From Erythrobacter sp. Alg231-14 (GTDB lineage Bacteria > Pseudomonadota > Alphaproteobacteria > Sphingomonadales > Sphingomonadaceae), in the NCBI RefSeq assembly GCF_900149685.1, contig NZ_LT702999.1, positions 992,001-1,056,000 on the forward strand: a DNA stretch of 64,000 nucleotides, read 5' to 3'. Below are positions 644 through 55,478 of the stretch, piece after piece (the first letter of the stretch is position 1; each line of letters opens with the position of its first letter). Position numbers and translations under genes: made by a program. A model generated the notes under the pieces. It was not told the DNA's origin. It worked only from the letters and a program-made list of their open reading frames with translations, and made no database searches.

Positions 644-664
644 TAACCGTGTTGATCGAATGGA

Positions 665-5567: not shown

Positions 5568-5575
5568 TTGGGCAA

Positions 5576-9023: not shown

Positions 9024-9131
9024 ATTCTTCATGAAATGTTCGGTGATTGTGTAACCGATCGCCGAGGGTCAACGAACCTCTCCATGAACCGTCGGCATTT
9101 TGCCGATGTTACCCTTTTGGAGCCCCTCAGA

Positions 9132-9533
9132 ATGATCCGCCTTTTCATGCTTATCGCAGCCATCGGAGCCGTCGTTATTGGCGGAATGCAATTGAACGCC
9201 CAGGCCAGCACAGCCGGTTGGCAATCCTATGACGAGGCTGAATTCATGATGGCCCAGAATAAGGGCAAGACTATCGTGGTCGACATCTACGCCGATTGGT
9301 GCCCTACATGCCGTGCACAGGCCCCTATCCTGGATGAATTGCGGGAAGAACGCGCCAGCGGTGATGTGTTGTTCGTGAAAGTGAATTTCGACGAGGAAAA
9401 GGCGTTCCTGCGCGCGCATCGAGTGCCGCGCCAATCAACCGTTCTGGTGTTCAACGGCACCAACGAAGTCGCGCGCTCAATTGCGGAAACCAACCGCACA
9501 CGTCTGCGCAATGTTGTGCTGGGCGCGTTGTAA
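9132..9533 (+). CDS. Periplasmic thioredoxin-family protein with WCPTC active site
   Basis: This 133-residue protein has a signal/anchor helix (residues 4-25) and a thioredoxin fold with WCPTC (Cys57, Cys60). The loop before strand beta-4 reads RQSTVLVF, so serine (Ser102) takes the place of the usual cis-proline. GGAG 9 bases upstream supports the ATG at 9132; the frame is open from 9036. It is followed 37 bases later by a CcdA-like membrane protein, which in this family carries electrons from cytoplasmic thioredoxin to periplasmic partners. The two probably form one periplasmic reducing pathway. Confidence 0.85.
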   Translation: MIRLFMLIAAIGAVVIGGMQLNAQASTAGWQSYDEAEFMMAQNKGKTIVVDIYADWCPTCRAQAPILDELREERASGDVLFVKVNFDEEKAFLRAHRVPRQSTVLVFNGTNEVARSIAETNRTRLRNVVLGAL

Positions 9534-9570
9534 GCAAACGATCCACTTCTCCATCTCAGGCTGATTGTCG

Positions 9571-10302: not shown

Positions 10303-10319
10303 CGGGACTGTTTTTTTTT
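10291..10319 (+). terminator. Weak stem-loop followed by nine T, overlapping the ccdA-like stop
   Basis: CCCG and CGGG can pair across a 7-base loop that includes the stop codon, and a run of nine T follows four bases later. The stem is short, so termination strength is doubtful. The T9 tract runs directly into eight G (10320-10327), an unusual homopolymer junction. Confidence 0.35.
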
Positions 10320-10462
10320 GGGGGGGGCGCACACAATTCGCTTCGCCGCTATCCCATTGTTGATCGATAACTCGGCTTCGCATGCGTTGGTGCAGGTCTC
10401 CTGTCCCTTCCCTCCAACCGGTCTTTCCGCCATGATCCACCGCGATAAAGGGAGGAACAACG

Positions 10463-10867
10463 ATGACCGATGAAACAAAACAGACGCCAAGCGGGCCCCG
10501 TGTCACCGGGCTAGGCGGGGTTTTTTACGTGGCCGGCGACACCGAAGCAACGCGCGCGTGGTATCGCGAAAAATTGGGTGTAGATGGCGAATATGGCCCC
10601 CAACTCGCGTGGTCCGAAGAACCAAAGCCCAACCCATATTCTCTGATCAGCCACTTCAAAGACGACGCCTACATCAAACCGGGCAAAGGCGGATTTATGA
10701 TCAATCTTCGCGTCGATGATTTGGATGGATTTGTCGAAGTGCTCAAATCCCGCGATGTCGAAGTTTTGGATACTGCCGACGAAGGCTATGGTAAATTTGC
10801 TTGGATCCTCGATCCCAATGGGGTCAAGATCGAGTTGTGGGAACAGATCGAAGAAGCGCTCCCTTAA
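10463..10867 (+). CDS. VOC-superfamily (glyoxalase/bleomycin-resistance-like) protein
   Basis: This is a 134-residue single vicinal-oxygen-chelate unit pair. The N-terminal half opens with GGVFYVAGDTEATRAWYREKLG, and the C-terminal half has FAWILDPNGVKIELWE with the metal-ligand glutamate near the end. Such small VOC proteins are metal-dependent lyases, dioxygenases or binding proteins; the substrate is not predictable. The ATG is preceded by a strong GGGAGG. Its neighbours are not functionally related, so it appears monocistronic. Confidence 0.85.
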   Translation: MTDETKQTPSGPRVTGLGGVFYVAGDTEATRAWYREKLGVDGEYGPQLAWSEEPKPNPYSLISHFKDDAYIKPGKGGFMINLRVDDLDGFVEVLKSRDVEVLDTADEGYGKFAWILDPNGVKIELWEQIEEALP

Positions 10868-10985
10868 CCTACTGATAACATTGAATGCATCGGCGCTAAG
10901 GATGATCCAGTAGAGCGCATTTAGTATTTGGTTAACGGTAAACTTTCCTGCTGCCTTAACCAATGCACCGTAGTGGTCCTTAAGT

Positions 10986-11747
10986 ATGAACCACTCAGTA
11001 CCTCTACTTGGCCTCGCTTCTAAAGCGGCCCCAATCGCCGCCGCACTCGCGCTTGCGGGTTGCGGTTCTGTAATCCCCGTTGGCAATGGCGCGTCCTCAT
11101 CCGCCAGCGCTCCGTCCGTTAGCGCACCGTCCAATGGCGGTTCCTCCTACACGCGCACCGCGCCACGCCGGGTGGCATCCGCCCCACAAAGCGTCGCGCC
11201 GCGTGCAGAGGACGCATCGTGTTTGACCAATCTTAGCGCCGCCGGGGCCAGCTTTGACGCTTTGCCCGACACCTATGCAGCGCCGGGATGCAACCGGCTT
11301 GGCACGGTCCAGCTTTCCGCTTTGGCCGGAGATGGTGGAGAATTTGGGATCAGCAATATTGGCCCGGTTCAATGCCGCGTAGCCAGCGCGTTTGGGAATT
11401 GGGCACGATTTGGTGTCGACCGAGCCGCCCGACAAATTCTTGGCAGCCCGCTCGCGCGCATTGAAACCATGGGCAGCTATGCATGTCGGAATATCGCAGG
11501 ATCCAATCGGCGATCGGCCCATTCGCGGGCTGAGGCAATCGACGTCTCAGGCTTTATCCTAGAAGATGGCCGCCGGATTTCATTGGTCGAAGATTGGGAT
11601 GGCGGCACCGCAGCCGAGCGTGAATTCCTGAGGGTTGTCCATTCCAGCGCCTGCAAACGGTTTGGGACTGTTCTTGGCCCTGAATACAACCGCGCCCATG
11701 CCGATCACTTTCACCTCGAAGGCACCGGCTCAGAATTCTGCCGGTGA
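10986..11747 (+). CDS. Extensin-like C-terminal domain lipoprotein (M15-like fold)
   Basis: This 253-residue lipoprotein has lipobox LALAGC near residues 20-25 and a serine/proline-rich linker (about 30-75). An extensin-like C-terminal domain follows (about 80-253). The domain has the histidine/aspartate arrangement of LAS/M15 peptidases: SAHSRAEAIDVSGF and HADHFHLEG. That suggests a zinc peptidoglycan or peptide hydrolase in the periplasm, although extensin-like bacterial proteins are not well characterised. Cysteine pairs (CRVAS, CRN, CKRF, EFCR) fit disulfides in the envelope. Confidence 0.85.
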   Translation: MNHSVPLLGLASKAAPIAAALALAGCGSVIPVGNGASSSASAPSVSAPSNGGSSYTRTAPRRVASAPQSVAPRAEDASCLTNLSAAGASFDALPDTYAAPGCNRLGTVQLSALAGDGGEFGISNIGPVQCRVASAFGNWARFGVDRAARQILGSPLARIETMGSYACRNIAGSNRRSAHSRAEAIDVSGFILEDGRRISLVEDWDGGTAAEREFLRVVHSSACKRFGTVLGPEYNRAHADHFHLEGTGSEFCR

Positions 11748-11768
11748 GCCAGAAGGTGCGCCAAAGAA

Positions 11769-11803
11769 CACGGCCCCAACATCGTATAGATGCCGGGGCC
11801 GTG
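11769..11803. terminator. Hairpin between extensin-like and LuxR-type genes
   Basis: Perfect 9-base arms CACGGCCCC and GGGGCCGTG enclose an inner CATC/GATG pairing. On the minus strand the stem is followed by TTCTTT, so it would best stop transcription from the LuxR-type gene. It may also stop the convergent extensin-like gene. Confidence 0.6.
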
Positions 11804-11874
11804 CGGGCGCCGAAAGGGTGCAGGGGGAACCCGATCGGGAAGTGTATCGTTTTTCGGTCAAGCCATGGGGCGTA

Positions 11875-12501
11875 CTACGGCTGAACCTCAATTTTGGGTT
11901 CCAATCTCGCTTCGAGCTTTAGTCGTACCGCTTCTGCGGCGTGACGGGCGCCCAGTTTGTGCATCATATTGGCCCGGTGAATTTCAACGGTTCGCGGACT
12001 AATTTCCAACTCACGGGCGATCACTTTGTTGCTGCTGCCTTCGGAAAGCCATTCGAGCACTTCGCGTTCGCGGGTTGAAAGGCTGGAGATGCGGTCCCGC
12101 GCTTCGATCATGCGACGGCGCGCCGCGCCAAAAACTTCGGCTTCTTTTTCAATACGGTTGAGGCATCGTTCGAAACGCTCGGTTTCCAATGGGAGCGAAA
12201 GGTAATCGAGCGCACCGGCTTTGATCGCCTCCACAATGCGGCCCGGCCTTGGGTCCGCGTCAATCGCGATCAAAGGCAACCAAATCCCAAGGCGGCTAAG
12301 CCGTTCAAGGATCATCGAGACGCCGCCTTCTTCGGGCATGTCGCGGGCGATGATGATGCCTTCTCGCGGAGGGTGAACGGACAATTCGGACAGGTCGCCG
12401 TATACTTCTGAGTGATGGCCGAGCGTGAAGCCGACCCTCGCCAACTCAGCACGGTGGCGGCTGTTCGGATCGATGAAGTGGAGTGAAGCTTTGCGTGTCA
12501 T
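11875..12501 (-). CDS. LuxR/FixJ-type DNA-binding regulator with degenerate receiver domain
   Basis: This 208-residue protein has a CheY-like N-terminal domain (about 5-120) and a LuxR helix-turn-helix (about 138-200: LSTREREVLEWLSEGSSNKV, then SPRTVEIHRANMMHKL). The receiver lacks key residues. The position four before the conserved proline (Pro56), where the phosphorylated Asp sits, is Ala52. The conserved lysine before the second proline is Leu103 (YLSLPLE). The protein is therefore likely a phosphorylation-independent pseudo-receiver regulator. No histidine kinase is nearby. It lies just downstream of the Anbu cluster on the same strand, with a 173-base gap. Confidence 0.88.
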   Translation of the reverse strand: MTRKASLHFIDPNSRHRAELARVGFTLGHHSEVYGDLSELSVHPPREGIIIARDMPEEGGVSMILERLSRLGIWLPLIAIDADPRPGRIVEAIKAGALDYLSLPLETERFERCLNRIEKEAEVFGAARRRMIEARDRISSLSTREREVLEWLSEGSSNKVIARELEISPRTVEIHRANMMHKLGARHAAEAVRLKLEARLEPKIEVQP

Positions 12502-12566
12502 GCCGAGCTTGGTGTGCGCGGCATGAAATTATTGCATCTCGGACTTAAACCGATTTGGAGGTATGC

Positions 12567-12638
12567 ATGCCTAGTTCGATCCTAGATCGACCAGAATGCG
12601 CCGAAAACTATCTCCAAAACGAACCTTATAATCCCTAA
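12567..12638 (+). CDS. Candidate 23-residue small protein with strong ribosome-binding site
   Basis: A short open frame starts at ATG 12567 and is preceded by a perfect GGAGG 5 bases upstream. It would encode a 23-residue acidic peptide ending NEPYNP. It lies on the plus strand in the gap between the Anbu gene and the LuxR-type gene, both on minus. A perfect 6-base palindrome (TCGATC, CTA, GATCGA) falls inside it. Chance occurrence of GGAGG plus ATG cannot be excluded. Confidence 0.3.
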   Translation: MPSSILDRPECAENYLQNEPYNP

Positions 12639-12674
12639 GTATTCTTCGTTGATATGGAGTTAGCCGCGAAAACC

Positions 12675-13418
12675 TCACTCAGAACCGAAGCTGTAATCTG
12701 GCAGAGAATGAAAAGCCGATCGCAGGGCATCGCCCCAATTTGACGAAATCGTATCAAAATATGGATCTTCGGCGGTCACGCGATGTTGATGCGTTGGTGC
12801 AAAATCGTCTTTGCCAATGACCAAGAGATCCAACGGCAGGCCAACGGACAGGTTCGCCTTCAATGTGGAATCGAACGAAACCATCACAAGTTTCACCGCA
12901 TCTTCAAAGCTCATATCGTGGTCATAGCCACGGATCAGGATTGGCCGTCCATATTTCGTCTCACCAATTTGAAAGAACGGCGTATCCATGCTCGCTTCGA
13001 TAAAGTTGCCTTCGGGATAGATCATGAAAAGGCGGGGTTCCATGCCGGCAATCTGGCCGGCCACGATCATAGAAGCGGTGAATTTCCCTCGTCCCCGATC
13101 GCCATTGGCCTTTTGTTGTTTATCGATCGTGGCGCGCAGCAATTTGCCAATTTCGCTCACCACAGCAAACATAGTCGGCCCGTTTAACACGGTGGTTTCG
13201 CGGTCCTCTGGTTGTTTTGTGCGCTCTTCCAACTGGCTGATCACGGCCTGAGTTGTGGCCAGATTACCGGCTGTCATCACCGCGATCATGCGATCACCAG
13301 GCACCTGCCAATGGAACATCTTGCGAAAAACAGAGATGTTATCGACGCCCGAATTGGTGCGCGTATCGCTCATCAGGACGATGCCCTTATCCACGATCAT
13401 GCCGACGCAATAGGTCAC
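12675..13418 (-). CDS. Anbu: bacterial proteasome-like (Ntn) peptidase
   Basis: This 247-residue protein matches Anbu, the ancestral beta subunit of bacteria related to HslV and 20S beta subunits. Removal of Met1 would expose Thr2 as the catalytic N-terminal nucleophile (MTYCVGM). The catalytic Asp and Lys appear at 18 (SDTRTN) and 33 (FRKMF). The family forms helical or ring-like assemblies; its substrates are unsettled. It is last in a same-strand series with transglutaminase, alpha-E and ATP-grasp genes. A 123-base gap separates it from the transglutaminase gene. No propeptide is present, as in other Anbu proteins. Confidence 0.93.
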   Translation of the reverse strand: MTYCVGMIVDKGIVLMSDTRTNSGVDNISVFRKMFHWQVPGDRMIAVMTAGNLATTQAVISQLEERTKQPEDRETTVLNGPTMFAVVSEIGKLLRATIDKQQKANGDRGRGKFTASMIVAGQIAGMEPRLFMIYPEGNFIEASMDTPFFQIGETKYGRPILIRGYDHDMSFEDAVKLVMVSFDSTLKANLSVGLPLDLLVIGKDDFAPTHQHRVTAEDPYFDTISSNWGDALRSAFHSLPDYSFGSE

Positions 13419-13541
13419 TACAAAAAACTCCGAGATTGAATTGCGGCGCGACTAGCACTTTTGCTTTGGGCGCGAGAGTCTTTTGTTTTTGTGCGCATGC
13501 CTGCGCCACGCCCGCTTAGGCACGGCGTGATTGGCGTAACA

Positions 13542-14366
13542 TTATTGTTGTTGCGTATCGTGCTGTTGTTCCACCGCGACATCGACGGTCAACATCTGTT
13601 CAGCGGCGCCGAAACTGATCCCGGTCACCGGCGCAGCATCGCGGTAATCGCGCCCTGTGGCCACGCGCACATACCGCGGATCGGGGCTAATCCCGTTGGA
13701 AATATCAAATCCGACCCAGCCTAGCTCATCAATATGCGCCTCTGCCCATGCGTGGGTCGCTTCTTGTTCTATCCGATCGTTCATCATGAGATAGCCGCTG
13801 ACATATCGTGCGGGAATATCCGCCGCGCGGGCGGCCGCGATAAAGATATGAGCATGGTCCTGACACACGCCGTGACCGGCGATGACGGCCTCTTCGGCGG
13901 TGGTGTTCACACCGGTTGCGCCGGTTTGATAGACCACGCCTTCGCGAATGCGCGCCGATAGAGCGTGGAGGTAATCAAGCTTCGTCTCTTCGCTGGGACT
14001 ATCGACGTCGCGGATCAACGCCCGCAATTTTGGTCCAGGCTTGGTCAAGGCGGTCTGACCTAAAAAACTCCACAGCGGCAAATGCCCAGAATGACGTCCA
14101 ATCACCCCGGCATTGTCTTCGGTTTGCACCGTGCCGCGACACGTCACCGTGACTTCGCTGACGCCGGGGTTGACGGCGATCAACGTGACCGTGTTGTAAT
14201 TCTGATCGTCAAATTCCAACTCAAGCTGCGCATTGTCATAGCGCATTTCCCAATCCAGAATTTTCTGACCCTGAGTCTCTTTCGGCGTTAGACGCAGGCG
14301 TTGCAACGCGTGGATCACAGGCTCTTTGAAAGAGTACCGTGTCGTGTGGCGGATCGCTAATTTCAT
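13542..14366 (-). CDS. Transglutaminase-like cysteine protease/ligase of the Anbu cluster
   Basis: This 274-residue protein has a bacterial transglutaminase N-terminal domain (about 1-100) and a transglutaminase core. The likely triad is Cys168 (GHGVCQDHAH), His205 (ATHAWAEA) and Asp221 (GWVGFDISNG). Proteins of this type cleave or form amide bonds. In this conserved cluster they are proposed to act with the ATP-grasp enzyme on peptide tags or peptide metabolites. No signal peptide is seen, so it is cytoplasmic. The start codon follows the alpha-E stop by 10 bases, indicating one operon. The tail is glutamine-rich. Confidence 0.92.
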   Translation of the reverse strand: MKLAIRHTTRYSFKEPVIHALQRLRLTPKETQGQKILDWEMRYDNAQLELEFDDQNYNTVTLIAVNPGVSEVTVTCRGTVQTEDNAGVIGRHSGHLPLWSFLGQTALTKPGPKLRALIRDVDSPSEETKLDYLHALSARIREGVVYQTGATGVNTTAEEAVIAGHGVCQDHAHIFIAAARAADIPARYVSGYLMMNDRIEQEATHAWAEAHIDELGWVGFDISNGISPDPRYVRVATGRDYRDAAPVTGISFGAAEQMLTVDVAVEQQHDTQQQ

Positions 14367-44342: not shown

Positions 44343-45377
44343 TCAGAAACTGAACCGGACTGATCCCACCGCTTTCACCTCGTCGGTTTGAACCAACGTG
44401 ACGCCATCCGAAACGATTGTCGCATCGGCGTGGTTCAATCCGAGATTGACCGAAAGCCCCCGCGCCACGGCGTAGTCAGCGCCTAGTGCTACGGCGATCT
44501 CCTCGTCGCCATCGGCCTCACCAAAATGCCCTTCGGCCGAGACACGCAGAGGACCCAGCTGGGTTTGTGCTCCGGCCGAAACGAACCACCGATCAAGATC
44601 GGTCAACGCACCATCCAGATGTTCATACCCACCGCCCAGATCGAACAGAGAGCTCCCATAGACAAATTCGCCCACCAATCCCGCGCCGTTTGTATCGAAC
44701 GTGGTGACACCATCGGCGGCGGTGAATTGGGCGCGACGATATCGCGCTGAGAACCTTAGGTCGCGCACCCCAATTGGCCGTTGAAAAACTGTTCCGGCTT
44801 CGAAATCTCCGTTCTCATCGACGACCAGACCCAAAACGCTGGGTCCAAAGCGACCAACATATGCCCCGCCCCAATTGTCCAACGAGCCAAGGAAATCGTC
44901 AAAAGCCAAAAAGCCATTGCCGACGCCGCGTTGACGCCGGGTCAATTCGCGGACTTGTTGATTCACATTACCACCAATGACGGTGCCAAAACTGGTCCCG
45001 ATAAACCCGGCAACATTGTCCGAATAGTCATCAGAACCGCCAAATCCATCAAGCGACGCCGAGGCATATTGCCCAAAATAGGCCGCCCCGATTGTCCAAC
45101 GATTGCCAAGCTGCGTTTCGGCGGTGACTTGGAAATTGCCCACGGCCTCAACCCGCACGTCATCGCCGCCTGTCACTTCATTGAATTCCGCGATCACCGG
45201 AACATCGGCGACCCCCGTCAGCGCGATCGTTATCCCTTCAAAATCATAGGCAATCGGCTCTTCGAGCGAAGAGAGGCGATCGTAATTGAGATTGACGTCT
45301 TGGGCATGCGCTGCACTTGGCAAAGCGGCGACGCCTACCAAGGCAATAGCCAAAGCGTGTTTTTGAGAAACAACCAC
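44343..45377 (-). CDS. Porin-like outer-membrane beta-barrel protein
   Basis: This 344-residue protein has a signal peptide (residues 1-25, ending AAHA) and many amphipathic strands with acidic loops. It ends in SVRFSF, the C-terminal phenylalanine used for outer-membrane insertion. It resembles alphaproteobacterial general porins rather than TonB receptors. GGAAGG eight bases before GTG 45377 supports the start. It begins 3 bases after the stop of the haloperoxidase-like gene, so the two are co-transcribed. Solute selectivity is unknown. Confidence 0.78.
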   Translation of the reverse strand: MVVSQKHALAIALVGVAALPSAAHAQDVNLNYDRLSSLEEPIAYDFEGITIALTGVADVPVIAEFNEVTGGDDVRVEAVGNFQVTAETQLGNRWTIGAAYFGQYASASLDGFGGSDDYSDNVAGFIGTSFGTVIGGNVNQQVRELTRRQRGVGNGFLAFDDFLGSLDNWGGAYVGRFGPSVLGLVVDENGDFEAGTVFQRPIGVRDLRFSARYRRAQFTAADGVTTFDTNGAGLVGEFVYGSSLFDLGGGYEHLDGALTDLDRWFVSAGAQTQLGPLRVSAEGHFGEADGDEEIAVALGADYAVARGLSVNLGLNHADATIVSDGVTLVQTDEVKAVGSVRFSF

Positions 45378-45380: not shown

Positions 45381-46763
45381 TTAGACCTTCCTTGGGAACA
45401 TCGTGTGAAACGCGTGTTGGGCAATTTGACGCCCTGCGCGGTCGGCCGCTTCGTGATCCTGGAGCCAGTGCACACCGCCGTACAAACGACTCCAACCGTT
45501 TTCATGAGCGGCTTGATCCAAGCTGTTGAAATACCGCCGCTTTCCGGTCAGGCTCGGCCATAGAACCTGATCCGGGCTTTCATGACTGAAGCTGACGGCA
45601 TCGGTGCCGATCAACAATTTCGTCATTTCCACTCCGGCCGCACCAAAGGTTGAATGGCCGGATGTGTATGCGGGGAAATTCGGTGTCGGAATGTAGCTTT
45701 GCCAACGAGGTTGTGTCGTCACGCGCGGGTCGGGATTGCCAAATTCGCCACATCGGAATTTGATTGCGGTTTCTGGGCGCAGCACATCGTAGGTGTATTT
45801 GCTGTCCCATGCGTTGATCGAAGCGTCGGCCTGCGTTGCACCAAGCAGTGCAAAATGGCGCGCATGATCAAGGAAGTCATATCCGCAATCCTGCATAACC
45901 TGCAGAGCGATGTAGAGGAAATGTCCCGGCGGTGTGATGCCCCATGGGCCATCTTCCCAAAACAGAGCGATTTCGGATTGATCGGCGGTTCTCAATTGAG
46001 AATCCTTGCCGCCCAACGCCCTCACCTGTTCAAACTGTCCAGCGAATTCGGGACTGCGCGGGTCGGGGAACGCATCCACACGGAACTGCGAAGGGCTGGT
46101 CATAGTCCAAGGTTTGATCTGACCATGACCGGGAAATAAGCCTCGGTCATAAGCCCCGACCGTTGGCCCGGGCCGCGCACTATAGGATGGCCCGGTTGGC
46201 GTCCACTTCAATGCGTCTTGGCGACGAGGATAGCGTCCATGGTAGTAATTAACGCGGTCGGGTTCTGCACCGTCATGGGTCCGCATCTTGTTGATCGCAA
46301 TGCCAACATGACGCCCCCACGCCGCGCCCAATTCCTTGGCTTCACCGCTTTCGAATTGCCCCATAAAACTGCGCCGTTCCCAAAGGAATGGCTGTTGGAA
46401 ACACTCCGCCGCAGCGGTTGCAAACGCGACACCGTAAGCGACTTCGGGATCTGCACCTTGCGGGGCTTCGCCAAAATCATAAGGCGTATCATATCGCCCG
46501 ATAATAGCGTTCGCCGCAACGAAACCTGCGACCATCGGGCCTGCAAAATTGTAAGCGGCGCGCGGCGGCGCAACGCGTTGATCGCGCACCTGCTGCATCG
46601 CGATGTCGACCCATCGATACACTGTGTTCGTGTTGCGCGGTTCAACGATGTTGGTGAGATAACTCGCCCGTGAACCCATTGATGCGGTTGCGCAGCCCGA
46701 TAGGCCAGTCGCAGCAATAGTCGCCGCAGCGCCGGCCATCGCGGCACGCCGTGATATTATCAT
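45381..46763 (-). CDS. Vanadium-dependent haloperoxidase-like / PAP2-fold exported protein
   Basis: This 460-residue protein has a Tat-like signal with ISRRAAMAGAA followed by a lipobox-like LSGC. Its C-terminal half carries the vanadate/phosphate motifs of the V-HPO/PAP2 fold: VLRPETAIKFR, YTSGHSTFGAAG and SRLYGGVHWLQDHEAA (Arg and His). Such enzymes oxidise halides with peroxide, or act as phosphatases. AGGAGG before ATG 46763 sets the start. It is co-transcribed with the porin-like gene. Which activity it has is unresolved; the long size and motif spacing favour the vanadium haloperoxidase-like group. Confidence 0.85.
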   Translation of the reverse strand: MIISRRAAMAGAAATIAATGLSGCATASMGSRASYLTNIVEPRNTNTVYRWVDIAMQQVRDQRVAPPRAAYNFAGPMVAGFVAANAIIGRYDTPYDFGEAPQGADPEVAYGVAFATAAAECFQQPFLWERRSFMGQFESGEAKELGAAWGRHVGIAINKMRTHDGAEPDRVNYYHGRYPRRQDALKWTPTGPSYSARPGPTVGAYDRGLFPGHGQIKPWTMTSPSQFRVDAFPDPRSPEFAGQFEQVRALGGKDSQLRTADQSEIALFWEDGPWGITPPGHFLYIALQVMQDCGYDFLDHARHFALLGATQADASINAWDSKYTYDVLRPETAIKFRCGEFGNPDPRVTTQPRWQSYIPTPNFPAYTSGHSTFGAAGVEMTKLLIGTDAVSFSHESPDQVLWPSLTGKRRYFNSLDQAAHENGWSRLYGGVHWLQDHEAADRAGRQIAQHAFHTMFPRKV

Positions 46764-46938
46764 CAATTCCTCCTAAGCGATGCGGCCGCCTGAATTGCCG
46801 CATTTCGAAACCCGTCAATTCACAAGCCAATCCATCAAAGACGAGCGAACCTACGAGAGCGCGAGAGGAGGACTTACCCGAGAAAAGGTAAGGAAAAGTT
46901 TCTTGGTTGATGCAATCTTTACGATGATCTCTGAACAC

Positions 46939-47056: not shown

Positions 47057-47800
47057 TTACTGCGCACTCGCCTCAAGCTTATCAGCGAGCTGCGTAAGCT
47101 GGGTCATGCAACCGTTTTCAATCAACGCTTGCGCCAATGCATCAGGAGCCAACCTTTCCTCGGTCAGCTGTACAAAGGTCAATTCTGTGGTCGCCTGCTC
47201 ACCGTCTTCGCCTGCGGGCGCAGTGACGGTGTAGGTGGTGCCTTCGCTCAAAGAGAGACCATCGGGGTCGAGAGCGCGAAGCACTTCGGTTTCCACAAAG
47301 TTCACATCAAGAGTGGTCTGTGTGGTCTGATCAGTGATTTGATAGGTTTGCGGGCCTTCAGTCGCTGGGCGCCAAAGGCGAACCGTTTCCAAGTCATACA
47401 GGCATACTGGTCCCGCAGCGGCAATGTTCACATACCAAAGGTTTGGATTACCAGTCGACGTTGCGCCGCCACGAACCGCACCGGTCCGTGCGCGGCTGCT
47501 GTTGCGGCGACGGGTCAAGTTGGAAAACTGCGACCGCGTCCGTGTTGCCCCTTGGCCAACCCGGAACGTGCCCGGCCCTTGCAAGACGCGTGTACCACCA
47601 TCGGTAAGCACGGTGATTTTGTCACCGGCGCGCAATGTAATGCTCGACGAATCTTCAACTTGACGACCAACGGGGTAGTCACTCGACGACGGTCCGGAAG
47701 ATTTCACAACCACACCGGCTGAAGCCATTGCAGGTACTGTCATAACGGCGCCAACAAGCGCCACGCCCATCAAACGGGCCTTAATTTTATCCGAGAACAT
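47057..47800 (-). CDS. Exported FecR-like protein downstream of the CHASE2 cyclase
   Basis: This 247-residue protein has a signal peptide (about 1-29, ending ASA). A beta-rich segment follows (about 40-80: TLRAGDKITVLTDGGTRVLQ and GPGTFRV), like the start of FecR-type domains. An arginine/serine-rich linker (about 85-110) and an unassigned C-terminal half follow. The start ATG overlaps the cyclase stop by 14 bases and carries GGGGGGAG, so the two are translated together. A periplasmic partner of the CHASE2 receptor is inferred. Two cysteines (PVCLYD, NGCMTQ) may form a disulfide. Confidence 0.65.
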   Translation of the reverse strand: MFSDKIKARLMGVALVGAVMTVPAMASAGVVVKSSGPSSSDYPVGRQVEDSSSITLRAGDKITVLTDGGTRVLQGPGTFRVGQGATRTRSQFSNLTRRRNSSRARTGAVRGGATSTGNPNLWYVNIAAAGPVCLYDLETVRLWRPATEGPQTYQITDQTTQTTLDVNFVETEVLRALDPDGLSLSEGTTYTVTAPAGEDGEQATTELTFVQLTEERLAPDALAQALIENGCMTQLTQLADKLEASAQ

Positions 47801-49901
47801 AAGCTCCCCCCTCATTCAGGTTTCGAATGCGACTGCTATAGTTACGCAACGCCAGATCGTCTGGATGCATAGCAGCCACCTCATCGATTAATTGTACTGC
47901 TACGTCATGTTTGCTTTCGCTAAGCTGAGCGGCCTCAATCAATTTTGCACGATGTTCCTCAGGGAAATCGGGCATGGGTTGGTAGATATCGACCGGTTGA
48001 GCTCGTCCGCGCAAAACAATGCGTCCCATAGGGACCCACCAATCCGGAGACGATCGCTCGATAAACTCGCGGCTGGCAGAAACATTGGAATCCAATGGCT
48101 TGTTCGCCGCTTCGAGCCGGGCGGCGGTGTTCATACTATCGCCCAAGGCGGTGTATTGAATGCGCGTTTCGCCGCCAAAATTGCCGATTACCGCTTCGCC
48201 GTAATGCAACCCAACCCGGGTTTTTCCGATTTTCGGAAGGCTGTCATCCATCGCCGCCACTTCTTTGCGGAAATCTTCGCCTGCTTTCCACATGGCGTAT
48301 CCCGCATTGGCGGCGCGTTCGGCATCATCGGCACGCGCAATTGGCGCGCCCCAAAACGCTACGACCGCATCACCAACAAATTTGTCGATCACCCCGCCAT
48401 GTTCGAGAACAACCTCGCTCAACATTTCAAGGTAGCGATTGAGCAACTTAGCGACCATTTCTGGCTCGATCGCGTGGCTCATTTTGGTGAAGCCCTCCAA
48501 ATCGCTGAAAAGGACGTAGATCTCACGTTTCTCCCCGCCCAAGGATAGGAGGTCTGGATCCTCGATGATCTGTTGGGCGATGTCACGCGGGATGTATTTG
48601 CCCAGCGCGCCCTGCGCGAAGCTGCGTTGAGCCGCGCCAGCCGATCGAGCCGCAGCTGTTACCGCTGTGAACGCGACAATCCATGCAACCAGCCAACCGA
48701 CCGCCGGCAATCCATAAGTGTCGATGTCTTGGAAATGCAGCGCAAATGGCACACCCACAAACAACACGAACAAAACCACCAAGAGCGGTGCCAGTTTTGA
48801 GGCAGGCCATTCGAGCAACGCGGTGAGCGCTGCCGATGCGACAACCAGAATGGCCATCACCCAAAGGGCCCAGCTGGGTACAGTAGGAAGGACCTTCCCA
48901 TCCAACATCTGTGCGATAATCTCGCCGTGAACCGACAACCCTGCGGGTTCAAAGCCGGTCCACGATGTGAACGACGTTTCGACCCGGTCATAGTCGACAA
49001 TATCGCCGCCAATCAGAACATATTTACCTTCGATTTCCTGAGCAACGAATTCGGCCACAACTGGATCGAGGTTGGTGAACAGTTCAATCGAAAGCGATTG
49101 GAACAATGGCTCTTCAACTTCGGCTTGGCCATTTGGATCGGCTTCGACGCCCTCTTCGACCTCTTCGTCAAATCCAGCGCGCAAAGCCCTGCGATATTCA
49201 ATAGCGCCTTCATAATCGGCGAACGCTGCGGCCGGTCCACCAGCATCTTCCAACATGGCACGGCCCAGCAAAGGTGGCAGGTCCGGTTCAATCGATGGCC
49301 AGATACGCGTTGCGCCAAAGGAATTGTCCAAGCGGATACTGGCAGGGCGCGAATTTGACCCTTCCAATTCCGCCATAAATTCTTCGAGGAACACTTGTTG
49401 TTCAAAGACAATGTCGCTCGCATTGGTGGCAACGTTTGCATAACCGACCGCTGTTGGCGTCTGCATATTGCGCAACGTATCGATCAACAGACCATCATCG
49501 GCCTGCGGTTGATCGAAGAGTATATCGATCCCGATCGCTTTTGCGCCCATTTGGTCCAGATTGCCCAAAGCTTCGGCCAAAGCATCGCGGGGCAACGGGG
49601 AACGTTGTTCCAGATTGATCAGAGCCTGATCATCATAAACGACCAAGACGATTCGATCATCCTGCTCCACCAAATCGGCCGAAAGATAAGCGCGCGTATC
49701 ATACAGCGCACGTTCCGCCGCGTTGGTGAGCGGGGTTGGCTCTTCACCACCGGGTAGCACCCAGCTGAAACGAGCGAGGAAAAGTGCAAGACAGAGGAAC
49801 AAGCATGTCGAGATTAGCTGAAGCGTTCCTGCCTCACGAACGCTGCGCCAACCGCGCGCGATCAATCCGCCGCGTTTCTTCTTCTTCGTTTCGTCCGACA
49901 T
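47787..49901 (-). CDS. CHASE2-domain receptor with class III adenylate/guanylate cyclase
   Basis: This 704-residue membrane protein has one helix (about 26-46), a periplasmic CHASE2 domain (about 50-340: YDDQALINLEQRSPLPRDAL, AKAIGIDILFDQP), three helices (about 345-430) and a cytoplasmic class III cyclase (about 450-645). Both metal-binding Asp are present (VLFSDLEGFT and FVGDAVVAFWG). So are a Lys before the second (VIDKFVGD) and the GDSMNTAARLE segment. This pattern suits ATP as substrate, thus cAMP. The divergent neighbours use the other CHASE2 receptor (51.9 kb). The stimulus is unknown. Confidence 0.92.
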   Translation of the reverse strand: MSDETKKKKRGGLIARGWRSVREAGTLQLISTCLFLCLALFLARFSWVLPGGEEPTPLTNAAERALYDTRAYLSADLVEQDDRIVLVVYDDQALINLEQRSPLPRDALAEALGNLDQMGAKAIGIDILFDQPQADDGLLIDTLRNMQTPTAVGYANVATNASDIVFEQQVFLEEFMAELEGSNSRPASIRLDNSFGATRIWPSIEPDLPPLLGRAMLEDAGGPAAAFADYEGAIEYRRALRAGFDEEVEEGVEADPNGQAEVEEPLFQSLSIELFTNLDPVVAEFVAQEIEGKYVLIGGDIVDYDRVETSFTSWTGFEPAGLSVHGEIIAQMLDGKVLPTVPSWALWVMAILVVASAALTALLEWPASKLAPLLVVLFVLFVGVPFALHFQDIDTYGLPAVGWLVAWIVAFTAVTAAARSAGAAQRSFAQGALGKYIPRDIAQQIIEDPDLLSLGGEKREIYVLFSDLEGFTKMSHAIEPEMVAKLLNRYLEMLSEVVLEHGGVIDKFVGDAVVAFWGAPIARADDAERAANAGYAMWKAGEDFRKEVAAMDDSLPKIGKTRVGLHYGEAVIGNFGGETRIQYTALGDSMNTAARLEAANKPLDSNVSASREFIERSSPDWWVPMGRIVLRGRAQPVDIYQPMPDFPEEHRAKLIEAAQLSESKHDVAVQLIDEVAAMHPDDLALRNYSSRIRNLNEGGAYVLG

Positions 49902-50365
49902 TCACCATTCCCCCAAAGACCATCTCTATACAGATGGCCCCAATGCGAAACAGCAAAGCGGTTTTGTTCGGTCCGCGCAAGTCGCCTTGTCTAGGCAATC
50001 CCCCTATGATTGCGCCGCAGCGTTCTGCACCTGCTGACTTCCGGGTGTTGAACCCCATCAAGGCGATTGCTTAGGTTGTGAAGCCTACCGCTCTGAGAAA
50101 GCCGTAACGATGGGCGCATCAGGTCGGCGACTGGTCAATTTTCGAACATAGGAACTCAAACCACGCTGCTAATCTTCGTCTCAAAACTCGAGCCCCATCG
50201 TGCTCGGACCGAATAATCATCCACAAGGGACCAGAAACGGCGATACCGGATAAAGGGGTCTGCATTCGACGTAAGTTTACGAGTTAACACGCAAATTTCC
50301 AGAATCCGCGCTCGCGCGCTGCCCCCGGCAGCTTACAAAGACCCTTCCAAAGTGGAGGTAAGCTA
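49902..50365. promoter_or_regulatory. Divergent promoter region of the CHASE2/partner-switching locus
   Basis: This 464-base gap lies between the minus-strand cyclase gene and the plus-strand small ORF/STAS genes. It must hold both promoters. I see no gene in it. There is a small CCATC/GATGG hairpin (49921-49937) close to the cyclase start; no firm operator can be named. Confidence 0.4.
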
Positions 50366-50440
50366 GTGAAAAATTCACACTTAACTGCTCTCCTGACTTT
50401 GGTCGCCGTTCTGATGCAGGAGTCACTGTGCAGCACTTAA
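50366..50440 (+). CDS. Candidate 24-residue leader peptide overlapping the STAS gene
   Basis: GTG 50366 is preceded by GGAGG with a 7-base spacer. It starts a 24-residue hydrophobic peptide (MKNSHLTALLTLVAVLMQES at its start, then LCST). Its end overlaps the STAS start at 50428 by 13 bases in another frame, and it contains the STAS ribosome-binding site AGGAG. It could be a leader that couples translation to the STAS gene, or a small membrane peptide. No homology can be judged at this length. Confidence 0.4.
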   Translation: MKNSHLTALLTLVAVLMQESLCST

Positions 50441-50904
50441 TCGAAATGTCGCCGGTTCTTGGCGCGTACGACAAATCGTCAAAAGCCGTGCGCCTTTCGC
50501 GCAACTCGGCTTCCAACACCGCATTTGGCAATCCGGTTAACCCACGCTATGCACGTCGTATGACAGGCAGCGTATTGGACTGGAAAAGCGACGAACGCGC
50601 GGGGGCAACCGTGCTCGCTCCTAGTGGTCGAGTGGACGAATCGACGGCCGACGTCTTCAAAGAACACTTGCTGGCAGCGATGGGAAAAGGGCCTTCTTTG
50701 GCCGTCATCGATCTTGCCGGCGTGGAATACATGTCATCGCGCGGCCTTAGAGCGCTAACCTTAGCACAGCGCGCCGGCAAAGATGCCGAAACCACGATTA
50801 TTCTGGCGCGGCCAAACGACACGATGCGCGAAATTCTCGCGATCAGTCGATACGACATGGTATTTAGAGTTGCCGAAACGATTGAAGACGCGATCGGGCA
50901 CTAG
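50428..50904 (+). CDS. STAS-domain anti-sigma-factor antagonist
   Basis: This 158-residue protein has a 45-residue N-terminal extension of no known family, then a STAS domain (about 60-158). The phospho-serine segment is DLAGVEYMSSRGLRAL. In partner switching, an unphosphorylated antagonist binds a HATPase kinase and frees the kinase's target. GTG 50428 has AGGAG upstream; a later ATG (50560) without a ribosome-binding site would remove the extension. The matching kinase (55065) and phosphatase (51867) are in the same locus. This identifies a likely Rsb-type module. Confidence 0.88.
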   Translation: MQHLIEMSPVLGAYDKSSKAVRLSRNSASNTAFGNPVNPRYARRMTGSVLDWKSDERAGATVLAPSGRVDESTADVFKEHLLAAMGKGPSLAVIDLAGVEYMSSRGLRALTLAQRAGKDAETTIILARPNDTMREILAISRYDMVFRVAETIEDAIGH

Positions 50905-50926
50905 CTCAGCGTTTTAAGGGGGGAAT

Positions 50927-51892
50927 ATGCAGGTCCGGTTTTGGGGAACGCGCGGGTCGCTGCCTGTTGCGCCGCACGCCTCGACAATCACAGACAAAAT
51001 TGCGGACGCGTTGGTGCATGCCAACGGCAAGAGCTTTGCAGATAAAGACGCGGCCGCGGCCTATGCACGCGATGAATTGGAATTCGCCGTGGGACAGGGT
51101 TACGGAGGCGCGACCAGCTGTGTCGAAGTGGATGCAGGAGAAGGCGCCTTTGTCGTTTGCGATATGGGGTCGGGATTGCGAGAATTTGGCCTCGATACCT
51201 TGCGCCGCTTGTCTGATGGCCATCGACCAAAAGAATGGCACTTCTTCTTATCGCACCTGCATTGGGACCACATCATGGGGTTCCCATTCTTTGTGCCAGC
51301 CTTCGTCGAAGGCGCGAAGGTAATCATCCATGCCGGACACGCCGATGCCGAAGAGGCGCTGCGCCGTCAGCAGGAAGAGATATCTTTCCCCGTGCCGTTT
51401 CATTGGTTGAAGGCCGATATTGAATTTCGCACTTTAGAAACGGGACGCGAATATGAGATTGGCGAACTAACTGTCTCGCTTATCCAACAAGAACACAGCC
51501 ATGCAAGCTATGGCTATCGGTTCCGTGACGCAGACGGCAAAGTTGCGATTTATTCGACCGATGCTGAGTACAAAATCGAAAACATGGACGCCGAATCCGC
51601 GATGGTCGAATTTATCGCAGGAGCAGATTTGGTGATCGCCGATACTATGTATTCGCTCGCAGACAGTGTTTCGATGAAAGAGGATTGGGGCCACTCATCC
51701 AACATCGTGGCCGTGGACCTTTGTCATGAAGCAAGTGCAAAACGATTGGCGCTTTTCCATCACGAGCCAACCTATAGCGATGCCGACATTCAACGCATGC
51801 ATGGCGAGACCATTCGATACGAAGAGCTAACGCGCAACGGAAGTGAATTGACCGTTCTGTGTTCGTATGATGGGCTCTGTGTCGATCTCTAA
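50927..51892 (+). CDS. Metallo-beta-lactamase-fold hydrolase in the partner-switching locus
   Basis: This 321-residue metal hydrolase has HxHxDH in SHLHWDHIMGF, a second-site GGATSC region and DMGSG. Later come QEHSHASYGYRF, YSTDAEY and the closing DWGHSSN and LFHHEPTY histidines. It resembles PhnP- and cyclic-nucleotide-phosphodiesterase-like MBL proteins. No signal peptide is seen, so it is cytoplasmic. It starts 22 bases after the STAS stop and its end overlaps the CHASE2-PP2C start. A role in breaking down the cyclase product is attractive but unproven. Confidence 0.85.
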   Translation: MQVRFWGTRGSLPVAPHASTITDKIADALVHANGKSFADKDAAAAYARDELEFAVGQGYGGATSCVEVDAGEGAFVVCDMGSGLREFGLDTLRRLSDGHRPKEWHFFLSHLHWDHIMGFPFFVPAFVEGAKVIIHAGHADAEEALRRQQEEISFPVPFHWLKADIEFRTLETGREYEIGELTVSLIQQEHSHASYGYRFRDADGKVAIYSTDAEYKIENMDAESAMVEFIAGADLVIADTMYSLADSVSMKEDWGHSSNIVAVDLCHEASAKRLALFHHEPTYSDADIQRMHGETIRYEELTRNGSELTVLCSYDGLCVDL

Positions 51893-53996
51893 ACCGCAAA
51901 AAGTAGAAGCCGGACCGGACAACCAAACGGCTCATTCATCGCATCGCTCCAGAATTATGCGCGGTATTGTGATCGGCGCGATCATCGGCGCGCTGCTAAC
52001 ATTCCTGGCCGGCGATTTTGAACGACGGACCATGTTCGACACATGGCAAATTGTATCTCCTCGTCAAATCACTGCGGACAATGTCGTTGTCGTTGAAGTC
52101 GACGATTACAGCATCGAAGAGGCAGGCCAATGGCCGTGGCCGCGATATGTCACGGCGCAATTGATCGACCAGATTGGCGCTGCTCAACCGCGTGCGATTG
52201 GGATTGATGTCTACTTCACAGAGCCGGATCCTCTCAGCCCCCAAAATTTTGCAGACCGATACCTCGAAGAGGAGTTGGACAGTGAAACGCGCGAAACGAT
52301 CCGCGCCTTGCCCGATATGGACCAATATTTGGGCATCATACTGGGCCAAACGCCCAGCGTCTTAGGACGGGTGGTCACAAATGATCAGGGTGAAACAGCC
52401 GATCAGTATTTCTTCAACCCCGAAGTAAGCGGTACACCTCCACCCCAGATTTTGACCGGCGACCGCGTTGTGGCCAGCATTTTCACGCTGGACGAAGTGG
52501 CGATGGGCCATGGTATGCTGAACGGAGAACCGGACACCGATGGCTTGGTCAGACGTGTACCGCTGGCCACGAAAGTCGGTGAGGTTCAGGCCGCCGGGTT
52601 CGCCGCAGAATTGGCGCGCATCGCAATGGATGTTCCGCAACTAGAATGGTCGGCCGGTGGGTTGACCTTTGGCGACAAGACGGTCCCGACTGACGATGGC
52701 GCGAATATGCGTTTTCGTATGGGCACGCTTCCTGAAGAAGCGAAAATTTCTGCTTTGGAAGTGCTCAATCAAGAAGTCTCTGCCGACGTTTTCAAAGACA
52801 AAGTCGTGATCATTGGCGTCATCGCCACCGGTACATATGACATCGTCGGCACACCATTGAACAGCGAAGCATTCGGCGTCCACGTTCAGGCGCAGGCTGT
52901 CGATGCCATCCTTGAAAATGCGTGGGTATCGCGCCCTGCTTACATGACCGCGGTTGAGATCGGATTGGCTGTGTTGTTGGTCATCCTGATCATTGTCGGT
53001 GCCAATGCATCACGGAATTGGCCGTTTTGGCTGGCATTTGGTGTTGCGGTAGCCCTACCCTTCGGATCTTGGCTTGGTTACACGCAAGGGAACGTGTTGT
53101 TCGATCCGGCGCGCCCGTTGCTGGTTGCGGCCTGCGCTGCCATTGCTTTGGCAATCACCCGATTTGCAGTGGCCCGATCTGAACGCAAACGATTGGCCGA
53201 TGAATTGGTTGAAGAACGTGTGCGCGCTTCGGAGCAAAAGGGCGAATTGGAAGCAGCCCGCCGCATCCAAATGAGCATGGTGCCGGGCGAAAAAACTCTT
53301 TCCCGATTGGATCATAGGACGGAGATTGGCGCAGTCCTTGAACCGGCAAAATCGGTCGGTGGTGACTTTTTCGACGCCGTGAAGATAAACGAGCATTTGC
53401 TGCTTTTCATGGTGGGCGATGTCACCGGAAAAGGCGTTCCCGCCGCGCTGTTCATGGCGCTTTCAAAGACTCTTTCCAAAAGCAATCTGGCGCGCGCAGG
53501 TGACGGATTGGCCGAAGCCGTCGAGGCACTAAACCGCGATCTAATGGACGAAGCGGACGATGAAATGGGGCTGACCATGTTGGTGGGCACCGTGGATTGC
53601 CGCACCGGAGCCACGCAATTGATCAATGCGGGTCACGAAAACCCCATGGTTGTCCGCCAAGACAAAGATGGCAATGACACGGTCGACACCTTTGAGATGA
53701 AAGGTGGCCCACCGTTCTGTGTCATCGAATTCCCGTATCAAGTGGAAAGCATCGATTTGAACGAAGGCGACACTTTGATCGTGATCACCGATGGCGCCAC
53801 CGAAGCGGCGAATGAAGCCGATCAATTGTTCGGTATGAGCGGCGTCCTAGCGTCCTTAACAGCGCGCAATGACGGCAGCGCAAAAGGACGCGCTAGCAAG
53901 CTCGCGAAAGAGGTCCGCTTGTTCGAAGGGTCCAACGATCCCACCGACGATCTAACAATCTTTGCCTTGCGCTATCTGGGCGAAAAGGATCAATAA
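51867..53996 (+). CDS. CHASE2-domain receptor with SpoIIE/RsbU-type PP2C phosphatase
   Basis: This 709-residue membrane protein has one helix (about 30-47), a CHASE2 domain (about 50-345: VEVDDYSIEEAGQWPWPR, RAIGIDVYFTEPD), three helices (about 350-425) and a coiled-coil linker (about 425-460). A cytoplasmic SpoIIE/PP2C phosphatase follows (about 465-705: EPAKSVGGDFFDAV, VGDVTGKGVPAALFMA, NAGHENP, VITDGATEAANEA). It would dephosphorylate the STAS antagonist on stimulus. It overlaps the MBL gene end by 26 bases; ATG 51867 and GTG 51879 are both possible. Together with the cyclase (49.9 kb) it gives the locus two CHASE2 sensors with different outputs. Confidence 0.92.
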   Translation: MMGSVSISKPQKVEAGPDNQTAHSSHRSRIMRGIVIGAIIGALLTFLAGDFERRTMFDTWQIVSPRQITADNVVVVEVDDYSIEEAGQWPWPRYVTAQLIDQIGAAQPRAIGIDVYFTEPDPLSPQNFADRYLEEELDSETRETIRALPDMDQYLGIILGQTPSVLGRVVTNDQGETADQYFFNPEVSGTPPPQILTGDRVVASIFTLDEVAMGHGMLNGEPDTDGLVRRVPLATKVGEVQAAGFAAELARIAMDVPQLEWSAGGLTFGDKTVPTDDGANMRFRMGTLPEEAKISALEVLNQEVSADVFKDKVVIIGVIATGTYDIVGTPLNSEAFGVHVQAQAVDAILENAWVSRPAYMTAVEIGLAVLLVILIIVGANASRNWPFWLAFGVAVALPFGSWLGYTQGNVLFDPARPLLVAACAAIALAITRFAVARSERKRLADELVEERVRASEQKGELEAARRIQMSMVPGEKTLSRLDHRTEIGAVLEPAKSVGGDFFDAVKINEHLLLFMVGDVTGKGVPAALFMALSKTLSKSNLARAGDGLAEAVEALNRDLMDEADDEMGLTMLVGTVDCRTGATQLINAGHENPMVVRQDKDGNDTVDTFEMKGGPPFCVIEFPYQVESIDLNEGDTLIVITDGATEAANEADQLFGMSGVLASLTARNDGSAKGRASKLAKEVRLFEGSNDPTDDLTIFALRYLGEKDQ

Positions 53997-54011
53997 AATC
54001 CAACCCGCAAC

Positions 54012-54596
54012 TTAGCGGATTACGACATCGACCCTGCGATAATTTGCATCGGCCACGTCATCGCCATTGGCCCGACGCGCGCTGTATTCGCCCATTCCGA
54101 CGACGTCTTCATTCGCAATTTCATATCCGGCAGCGCGCATAATTGCGGCGACGCCTTCCGCGCGTTGCTGAGAAACTTCCGAATTGAGCTCTTCAGACCC
54201 TTCGGAATCGGTGTAGCCACGGATTAGAACTTGATAACCTGGGCGGCTTTCCAACCCTGATAAATGTGCTCGGATTTGCGCCACTTGCTGTTCACTTAAC
54301 TGCATTTCACCGGTTGGAAATCCAGTGAGGCCCAAAGGTGACGCGGCCGGAGGGAGATACGATAGCAATTCAGTGTATGCCGGATCGACAGACGTCAATT
54401 GGCGCACACGCGGCGCCCGTTTGGAAAGGCGGGCCTGTTGATTTTCCACATTGAGAACGGTGTCATCTCCCCCTTCTTGCAACACAGCAACCGATCCGAT
54501 CGGGCCACCGTCGGAATGCGAAAGCAAAGTGACACGGTCGCTGACGCAGGCGCTAAGCGTTAAGGTGGCGCCAAGTGCTAGAAGAGACTTTTTCAT
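54012..54596 (-). CDS. OmpA-domain lipoprotein
   Basis: This 194-residue lipoprotein has lipobox LSAC (Cys17), a linker (about 25-90) and an OmpA peptidoglycan-binding domain (about 95-194: QVLIRGYTDSEGSEELN, then EVSQQRAEGVAAIM and NYRRVDVVI). It would tether the outer membrane to peptidoglycan or sense the cell wall. It starts inside the stop of the FecR gene (ATGA overlap) and is convergent with the CHASE2-PP2C gene. It belongs to the same envelope-signalling locus. Confidence 0.9.
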   Translation of the reverse strand: MKKSLLALGATLTLSACVSDRVTLLSHSDGGPIGSVAVLQEGGDDTVLNVENQQARLSKRAPRVRQLTSVDPAYTELLSYLPPAASPLGLTGFPTGEMQLSEQQVAQIRAHLSGLESRPGYQVLIRGYTDSEGSEELNSEVSQQRAEGVAAIMRAAGYEIANEDVVGMGEYSARRANGDDVADANYRRVDVVIR

Positions 54597-55027
54597 CCGG
54601 AAACCTCAACCACAAATGTCGTGCCACGCACACCAAGCGTCGAAGTTGGAGTGCGCACCCGCATACGGTCTCTGCCGCTGCGTGTGATACTGCCCGAGGT
54701 CACGCCCAAAGATCCGCGATTGATGGAAGTGACAGAACGGCCCGTCTGGCGCCGCCGGTCATATTCGTATTCATCAAGCGTAACGCGGCTGTTGGGGCCC
54801 AGCGCCATACGCGTGTCATCCGAAAGTGTGATCCCTACCCGCGACCGACTGCCCGTGGTGATGACATCGCCTTCTTCCAGCTTTAAACCAGATCGCGCTG
54901 TGATCGTGCGGCCATCTCGCAGGATCTGCACGCCCGATGTCACATTCTTAATTCGACCGATTTCGGCCAGTGCAGGTTGCGCAACGAAGGCAGCCATAGC
55001 AGCTACAAGGATACTAAATTTTCTCAT
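54593..55027 (-). CDS. FecR-domain periplasmic protein
   Basis: This 144-residue protein has a signal peptide (about 1-21, ending PALAE). It is almost all FecR domain, with repeating beta-segments: GVQILRDGRTITARSG, LSDDTRMALGPNSRVTL and the closing TPTSTLGVRGTTFVVEVSG. FecR domains sense envelope signals; they are often found beside CHASE2 proteins. The stop overlaps the OmpA-lipoprotein start by 4 bases. It may act as the periplasmic ligand or partner of the CHASE2 receptors. Confidence 0.9.
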   Translation of the reverse strand: MRKFSILVAAMAAFVAQPALAEIGRIKNVTSGVQILRDGRTITARSGLKLEEGDVITTGSRSRVGITLSDDTRMALGPNSRVTLDEYEYDRRRQTGRSVTSINRGSLGVTSGSITRSGRDRMRVRTPTSTLGVRGTTFVVEVSG

Positions 55028-55064
55028 GTATTCCCCCAGACGGATATCGTGTTAGCATAGAATC

Positions 55065-55478
55065 GTGGCCCATAGGAGACGATTTTCGGCATTCGTTGCC
55101 AGCGAGAGCGATTCGCACTCCACCATTTTGGAGGCGCTTCAATTCGCGCGCGACTTTCTGAGGGGAAGCTGCCTTGATGAACGCGCCCGTGTCAAGGCAG
55201 CGATCATCGTAGAAGAGCTAGTATCCAATTGTTTACATCATGGCGGTCCAAACAAGGACATTGCGCTGTGGTTGTCATTGGAGGATTCTGGTGATGGAGT
55301 TCAACTGCACATAGAAGATGACGGCGGGCGATTTGATCCAACGCAGGCGCCCGAGGTTGTAGGCCCCGATCCGAAGACCGGCGGCGGTGTTGGATTGGCG
55401 ATAGTGGCGGCGTGGGCATCTGACATCACCTATGCGCGCACGAATGGTTGCAACGCTTTGTCGATGACAATCACGTAA
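55065..55478 (+). CDS. HATPase anti-sigma-type serine kinase (RsbW-like)
   Basis: This 137-residue protein has the GHKL ATPase fold: N-box EELVSNCLHHGG, G1 DDGGRFDP and G2 TGGGVGLAIV. It has no sensor or membrane part, as in RsbW/SpoIIAB-type kinases that phosphorylate a STAS antagonist and bind a sigma factor or other target. The start GTG 55065 has no strong ribosome-binding site. It is divergent from the FecR gene and its end overlaps the kynU end by 8 bases. No sigma factor gene is in the window. Confidence 0.85.
   Translation: MAHRRRFSAFVASESDSHSTILEALQFARDFLRGSCLDERARVKAAIIVEELVSNCLHHGGPNKDIALWLSLEDSGDGVQLHIEDDGGRFDPTQAPEVVGPDPKTGGGVGLAIVAAWASDITYARTNGCNALSMTIT

Follow-up and report, generated by a model that had tools for sequence, protein, structure and literature searches.

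A predicted six-gene partner-switch module of alphaproteobacteria with a metallo-hydrolase as candidate output

What does an alphaproteobacterial partner switch control when no sigma factor is encoded beside it? The targets of such switches are an open question, which is raised again by a locus at positions 47,057 to 55,478 of the window analyzed here, a stretch of 64,000 nucleotides from Erythrobacter sp. Alg231-14 (contig NZ_LT702999.1, positions 992,001 to 1,056,000; genome size 3.1 Mb). Six genes of this locus encode a STAS protein, a hydrolase of the metallo-β-lactamase (MBL) fold, a CHASE2 receptor with a PP2C phosphatase domain (CHASE2-PP2C), an OmpA-family lipoprotein, a FecR-domain protein, and a HATPase. 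As judged from sequence comparison, they constitute a conserved signaling module of alphaproteobacteria, which offers a concrete and always-linked candidate target, the MBL hydrolase. We give about even chances to the proposal that these six genes form a partner switch that senses the envelope, with the STAS-regulated MBL hydrolase, and likely not a transcription factor, as its output.

Conservation and anatomy of the six-gene core

Related loci (given L-numbers here) were collected by a single-protein scan (five close relatives only) and then by class-wide profile searches. Eleven Erythrobacteraceae loci (the window, L031 to L039, and L041) shared one layout, with the STAS, MBL, and CHASE2-PP2C genes on the forward strand, the OmpA and FecR genes on the reverse strand, and the HATPase gene again on the forward strand. 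L033 and L035 are near-identical and together are worth little more than one locus. The full layout was also present in other families (L106, L107, L113, and L125), and L112, likewise from another family, had all six genes with the HATPase gene relocated upstream. Flanking genes varied between loci with the six-gene layout. Since many genomes repeat the order of six of the eight genes of the window locus, the arrangement is not a product of chance. Pairwise divergences of the six core proteins were correlated (rho 0.39-0.86), and the MBL hydrolase was the most conserved member, with 45-95% identity to the window protein compared with 24-78% for the PP2C protein. A first-pass annotation of the window had described a set of eight genes, which included a CHASE2-cyclase and an exported 252-residue protein. 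The gene-neighborhood comparison bore this out for the six-gene core, which recurs beyond the host genome, whereas the eight-gene set was confined to the window and one close relative.

Close spacing and overlaps point to tight units within the core (Table 1). The STAS and MBL genes are separated by 22 bp, the MBL gene overlaps the CHASE2-PP2C gene by 26 nt, the OmpA and FecR genes, both on the reverse strand, overlap by 4 nt, and the HATPase gene starts 37 bp past the FecR gene. Domains were assigned from Pfam matches above cut-offs, with NCBIfam models as a second library.

Table 1. Genes of the locus, with positions in the window and supporting matches
Predicted product	Position	Strand	Matches and remarks
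Exported 252-residue protein	47057..47815	-	Signal-peptide-like start; accessory, not core
CHASE2 receptor with class III cyclase (adenylate-type residues)	47787..49901	-	Pfam CHASE2 1.7e-24, Guanylate_cyc 4e-16; accessory neighbor
STAS protein, RsbV-like	50428..50904	+	Pfam STAS 3e-13; NCBIfam ant_ant_sig (TIGR00377) above cut-off
MBL-fold metallo-hydrolase, HxHxDH motif, 45-residue insertion	50927..51892	+	Lactamase_B_2 1.3e-15
CHASE2 receptor with SpoIIE-type PP2C phosphatase	51867..53996	+	CHASE2 3.2e-48, SpoIIE 6e-39
OmpA-family peptidoglycan-binding lipoprotein, lipobox LSAC	54012..54596	-	OmpA 2.3e-10, LPAM
Exported FecR-domain protein	54593..55027	-	Pfam FecR 2.5e-12
Stand-alone HATPase, RsbW-like serine kinase family	55065..55478	+	HATPase_c_2 3.5e-15

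Pfam confirmed every domain named in the first-pass annotation, except that its second "FecR-like" protein, the 252-residue product, had no Pfam match at E ≤ 1 and none in NCBIfam. When compared with FecR at the profile level, this protein reached an hhalign probability of 45%, which is suggestive only, and its fold model was poor (predicted local distance difference test score, pLDDT, of 46) and unusable for fold search. Its gene and that of the cyclase share a 29-nt overlap. A search for RNA elements in the intergenic regions of the locus gave no Rfam match. An anti-phage role of the core was considered and rejected, PADLOC returning only a weak OmpA/MotB match; for the accessory cyclase, it found nothing beyond a class III cyclase resemblance to Pycsar cyclases.

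The surroundings of the module differ from locus to locus. A porin-like exported protein (44343-45377) and a vanadium haloperoxidase/PAP2-like protein (45381-46766) are encoded next to the cyclase in the window and were found together with it in L031 only. Kynurenine genes were rejected as members of the system because just four loci (the window, L031, L032, and L034) have them downstream of the module. In L032 to L035 (approximately positions 1-6231), the cyclase slot is taken by a two-partner secretion pair, an ShlB/FhaC-type transporter and a very large exoprotein, which might be a surface target of the switch.

The partner switch and its candidate output

The first-pass annotation had proposed an Rsb-type switch set of PP2C, STAS, and HATPase proteins, and this part held up well, each component being unique in the genome, co-conserved, and intact in its active-site motifs. 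The locus carries the only SpoIIE-type PP2C domain of the host genome and its only stand-alone HATPase of the HATPase_c_2 family, the remaining HATPase matches sitting in long frames. There are two STAS matches in the genome, the second in a 587-residue transporter-like frame. Since the sole SpoIIE-type PP2C, the sole stand-alone HATPase, and the sole non-transporter STAS protein are all encoded here, they probably operate as a closed partner switch. The metal-binding aspartates of the PP2C domain (D500, D518, D642, and D694) are invariant in 11 orthologs, and the HATPase keeps its N box and glycine boxes (E51, N55, and D85 invariant; the G106-G110 box conserved). Anatomy and conservation show CHASE2-PP2C, STAS, and HATPase to be one predicted cognate set.

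The candidate phosphorylation site of the STAS protein is Ser104 in the motif YMSSRGLR, assigned by analogy with SpoIIAA. The serine is retained in 28 of 29 STAS sequences, and the sole exception, in L120, has an asparagine. This Asn-type STAS belongs to a STAS-MBL pair (positions 8591-10081 of L120, genome G285) that has no linked PP2C or HATPase, a coincidence that would be the expected pattern and amounts to one data point. Other loci show further variation in the switch components. Tandem STAS genes lie ahead of the MBL gene in L113 (7490-8444), suggesting two inputs to one switch. In L117 (3345-7602), a stretch of about 2.3 kb, with no clear domains and no Rfam match, splits the CHASE2-PP2C gene between residues 300 and 301 of the model. 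Loci L122 and L123 (approximately 8000-13987), from small genomes, carry CHASE2-PP2C followed by an exported-looking protein, with a TPR match in L123, and a FecR protein, with no linked STAS or MBL gene.

In the first-pass annotation, the MBL hydrolase was one gene among several and the HATPase target was left open; in the comparison, no other gene accompanies STAS as constantly as that of the hydrolase. The MBL gene directly adjoins the STAS gene in all 28 loci, and the pair is kept in L119 and L120 even though no PP2C gene follows. All 28 STAS-linked hydrolases also carry an insertion that separates the first motif from the YGG motif by about 37-45 residues; each of 14 unlinked relatives has 8 residues at this place. 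Insertion lengths were read by sequence pattern, with separate inspection of sequences that the pattern missed; the shortest insertions were those of L109, L111, and L085. The insertion of the window protein was modeled as two helices, and the metal motif residues H110, H112, D114, and H115 are invariant. A phylum-wide search found no further member of this MBL subfamily outside the class in the sample searched. As the constant partner of STAS, the most conserved core member, and the bearer of an insertion specific to STAS-linked members, the MBL hydrolase is the likeliest candidate for the output of the switch.

The alternative that fares best is a conventional Rsb-type switch, in which the HATPase would be an anti-sigma factor or would sequester a regulator encoded elsewhere, with the MBL hydrolase as an accessory. 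The STAS and HATPase proteins do match anti-sigma antagonist and anti-sigma models, and the genome encodes eight sigma factors. However, no linked sigma factor of the kind seen in Sigma-B-type regulation occurs in or near the locus, in agreement with the first-pass annotation; about 0.4 Mb separates it from the nearest of the eight Sigma70_r2 genes. Moreover, the HATPase gene is missing beside several STAS-MBL pairs, whereas the MBL gene is always there, and RbaW of Rhodobacter capsulatus had no sigma partner by two-hybrid analysis, the data favoring output through RbaV (PMC3999984). We consider the conventional arrangement rather unlikely.

Substrate class of the hydrolase and outputs of the CHASE2 receptors

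According to its structure model, the nearest solved folds of the MBL hydrolase appear to be phosphodiesterases. The closest Foldseek matches were YhfI, RNase Z, PhnP, yeast PDE1, and Apyc1, with a fold-alignment identity of ~16-20% to the YhfI/Apyc1 class. YhfI prefers cyclic AMP (cAMP) and cyclic GMP, and Apyc1 was active on every cyclic mononucleotide tested (PMC9117128). The score against the cyclic-nucleotide phosphodiesterase model NF041851 was 57 bits, for a cut-off of 400. In L103 (1105-2289), an MBL from the family of the window protein carries a fused receiver domain, giving a predicted response regulator with a hydrolase output, so this type of MBL probably serves as a regulated output elsewhere. 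Insertion-less relatives of the MBL hydrolase are encoded directly behind a CHASE2-cyclase in L138 (6199-9362) and in the vicinity of CHASE2-cyclase and FecR genes in L150 (222-6496). Taken together, the insertion, the receiver fusion, the cyclase neighbors, and the phosphodiesterase folds suggest that the MBL protein is a signaling hydrolase, most plausibly a phosphodiesterase, controlled by the STAS protein. Another MBL relative (31% identity) is encoded near FecR, TPR, and PilZ genes on the Leptospira plasmid pLiSL25 (L127).

The MBL protein could instead be an RNA-processing enzyme, through which the switch would alter RNA turnover or tRNA maturation and not a cyclic nucleotide. Among proteins of solved structure, those closest to it in sequence are RNase Z proteins, and in NCBIfam its top score was to the RNase Z model. 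That score, however, was 62 bits where 293 are needed to pass the cut-off, and DTMY occupies residues 239-242, the position of the tRNase Z motif HEAT. An RNA substrate therefore seems improbable to us, and a phosphodiesterase remains the preferred assignment.

The CHASE2 receptors raise the related question of how many outputs are served by one signal. CHASE2 and FecR genes are common neighbors, as the first-pass annotation had stated: 30 of 87 CHASE2 matches in 86 sampled genomes of the class had a FecR match within 5 kb, compared with 0.75 expected by random placement. Both Pfam FecR genes of the host genome adjoin CHASE2 genes. Three CHASE2 receptors with three output types (cyclase, PP2C, and histidine kinase) are encoded in this genome, the third being a CHASE2-PAS-histidine kinase beside a LysM-FecR protein (7635-11275 of L042, contig C1:2017000-2035000 of the same genome). 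The accessory cyclase has D467, D511, K507, T584, N591, and R595 as presumed catalytic residues, which fit an active adenylate-type class III enzyme. Eight cyclic nucleotide monophosphate-binding domain matches were found in the host genome. If the MBL hydrolase were a cAMP phosphodiesterase, both CHASE2 receptors of the locus would, hypothetically, act on one messenger.

The first-pass annotation had gone further and suggested one system of CHASE2-cyclase and switch, in which a single periplasmic signal could act on both receptors and so feed a messenger and the partner switch side by side. The two receptors do lie side by side in the window and in L031, and CHASE2 genes often adjoin FecR genes. 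Nevertheless, a full eight-gene system had to be rejected, the cyclase and 252-residue genes adjoining the module in just those two of 28 loci; in the other 26, they are absent from its flank and the slot holds unrelated genes. Each CHASE2 receptor of the locus also has its own exported neighbor, as does the histidine kinase elsewhere in the genome with its LysM-FecR protein. We therefore regard a single shared signal as unlikely. It is more doubtful still that the MBL hydrolase acts upstream of the switch, as RsbQ does with RsbP, by producing or removing a small molecule that governs the phosphatase: its gene overlaps and usually neighbors the PP2C gene, but it stays with STAS where PP2C is absent (L119 and L120), and the PP2C protein senses through a periplasmic domain, whereas the hydrolase has no export signal.

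Proposed mechanism and comparison with known systems

In the partner switch that we propose, the FecR protein and the OmpA lipoprotein would report the condition of the outer membrane or cell wall to the periplasmic CHASE2 domain, which would set PP2C activity. This relay is plausible, given the CHASE2-FecR linkage and parallel published cases, although inferred. From their families, the HATPase would be expected to phosphorylate STAS at Ser104 and to bind unphosphorylated STAS, and PP2C would strip the phosphate. Free STAS would then bind the MBL hydrolase and alter its activity, probably through the helical insertion unique to STAS-linked members. Less firmly, the hydrolase may cleave a cyclic nucleotide, in which case the switch would lower or spare a messenger; the adjoining CHASE2-cyclase could make the same messenger in this strain, and the two receptors may push and pull one pool and not drive separate outputs. 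The complete version, in which STAS directly controls a cyclic-nucleotide phosphodiesterase through the insertion, so that envelope state sets messenger removal with no transcription factor and opposes the CHASE2-cyclase next door in the strain, is offered as a tentative possibility.

Several observations weigh against these proposals. In L110, from another family, five of the six core genes are present and the HATPase gene was not found nearby. The STAS-MBL-PP2C triad stands alone in L040 and, outside the Erythrobacteraceae, in L108, L109, L111, and L114, where FecR, OmpA, and HATPase genes were not found nearby. The products of these three genes may therefore act from elsewhere or be dispensable. 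The structure model of the MBL hydrolase is of moderate confidence (pLDDT 74.6), the RNase Z model slightly outscores the cyclic-nucleotide phosphodiesterase model, both lying far below cut-off, and a cyclase was nearby in just two of 18 unlinked MBL loci examined.

If the proposed mechanism is right, messenger hydrolysis would become one more output known for partner switches, the module would illustrate how CHASE2 receptors that have FecR partners serve outputs of different types, and the insertion would mark a new, recognizable MBL subfamily. No description of the STAS-MBL pair or of the six-gene set was found in the open-access literature, and parts of the module resemble several described systems. 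The hydrolase shares its fold and HxHxDH motif with the class II cyclic-nucleotide phosphodiesterases YhfI and Apyc1 (PMC9117128), but its identity in the fold alignment is ~16-20%, its score is far below the family cut-off, and it has a 45-residue insertion. The PP2C, STAS, and HATPase proteins have the same motifs as RsbU, RsbV, and RsbW of the Bacillus sigma B system, whereas the switch genes here lack a linked sigma factor gene and share their cluster with those of an MBL enzyme and envelope proteins. A CHASE2 receptor, a FecR envelope protein, and a phosphodiesterase are also clustered, together with a TPR protein, in Campylobacterota (PMC9239204), where the CHASE2 output domain is an adenylate cyclase and there is no STAS/HATPase partner switch. 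In Sinorhizobium meliloti, the CHASE2 receptors CyaD1, CyaD2, and CyaK sense an external signal through an outer-membrane protein, NsrA; their output is cyclase only, and the outer-membrane partner is a beta-barrel (PMC13001267). RbaV, RbaW, and RbaY of R. capsulatus are an alphaproteobacterial STAS/HATPase/PP2C set that, like the one described here, has no linked sigma factor; it differs in that its PP2C carries a receiver domain and not CHASE2, its operon is reported to comprise rbaV and rbaW, and it affects gene transfer agent production (PMC3999984).

The module is best read as analogous to SiaABCD of Pseudomonas aeruginosa, that is, as a putative partner switch with an enzyme output. There, the phosphorylation state of SiaC depends on a PP2C phosphatase and a kinase, and SiaC in turn binds the diguanylate cyclase SiaD and activates it (PMC8457831, PMC7647112); SiaA is a named NCBIfam match of the PP2C protein of our locus. 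Both systems combine a membrane PP2C, a kinase, and a STAS-type switch protein with an adjacent enzyme gene; in SiaABCD, this enzyme belongs to nucleotide-messenger metabolism and is controlled by the switch protein, a role for which the hydrolase here is a candidate. SiaABCD has a diguanylate cyclase output and a phosphosite at Thr68, whereas the alphaproteobacterial module has a candidate MBL output, a CHASE2 sensor, and FecR and OmpA proteins encoded in the same cluster.

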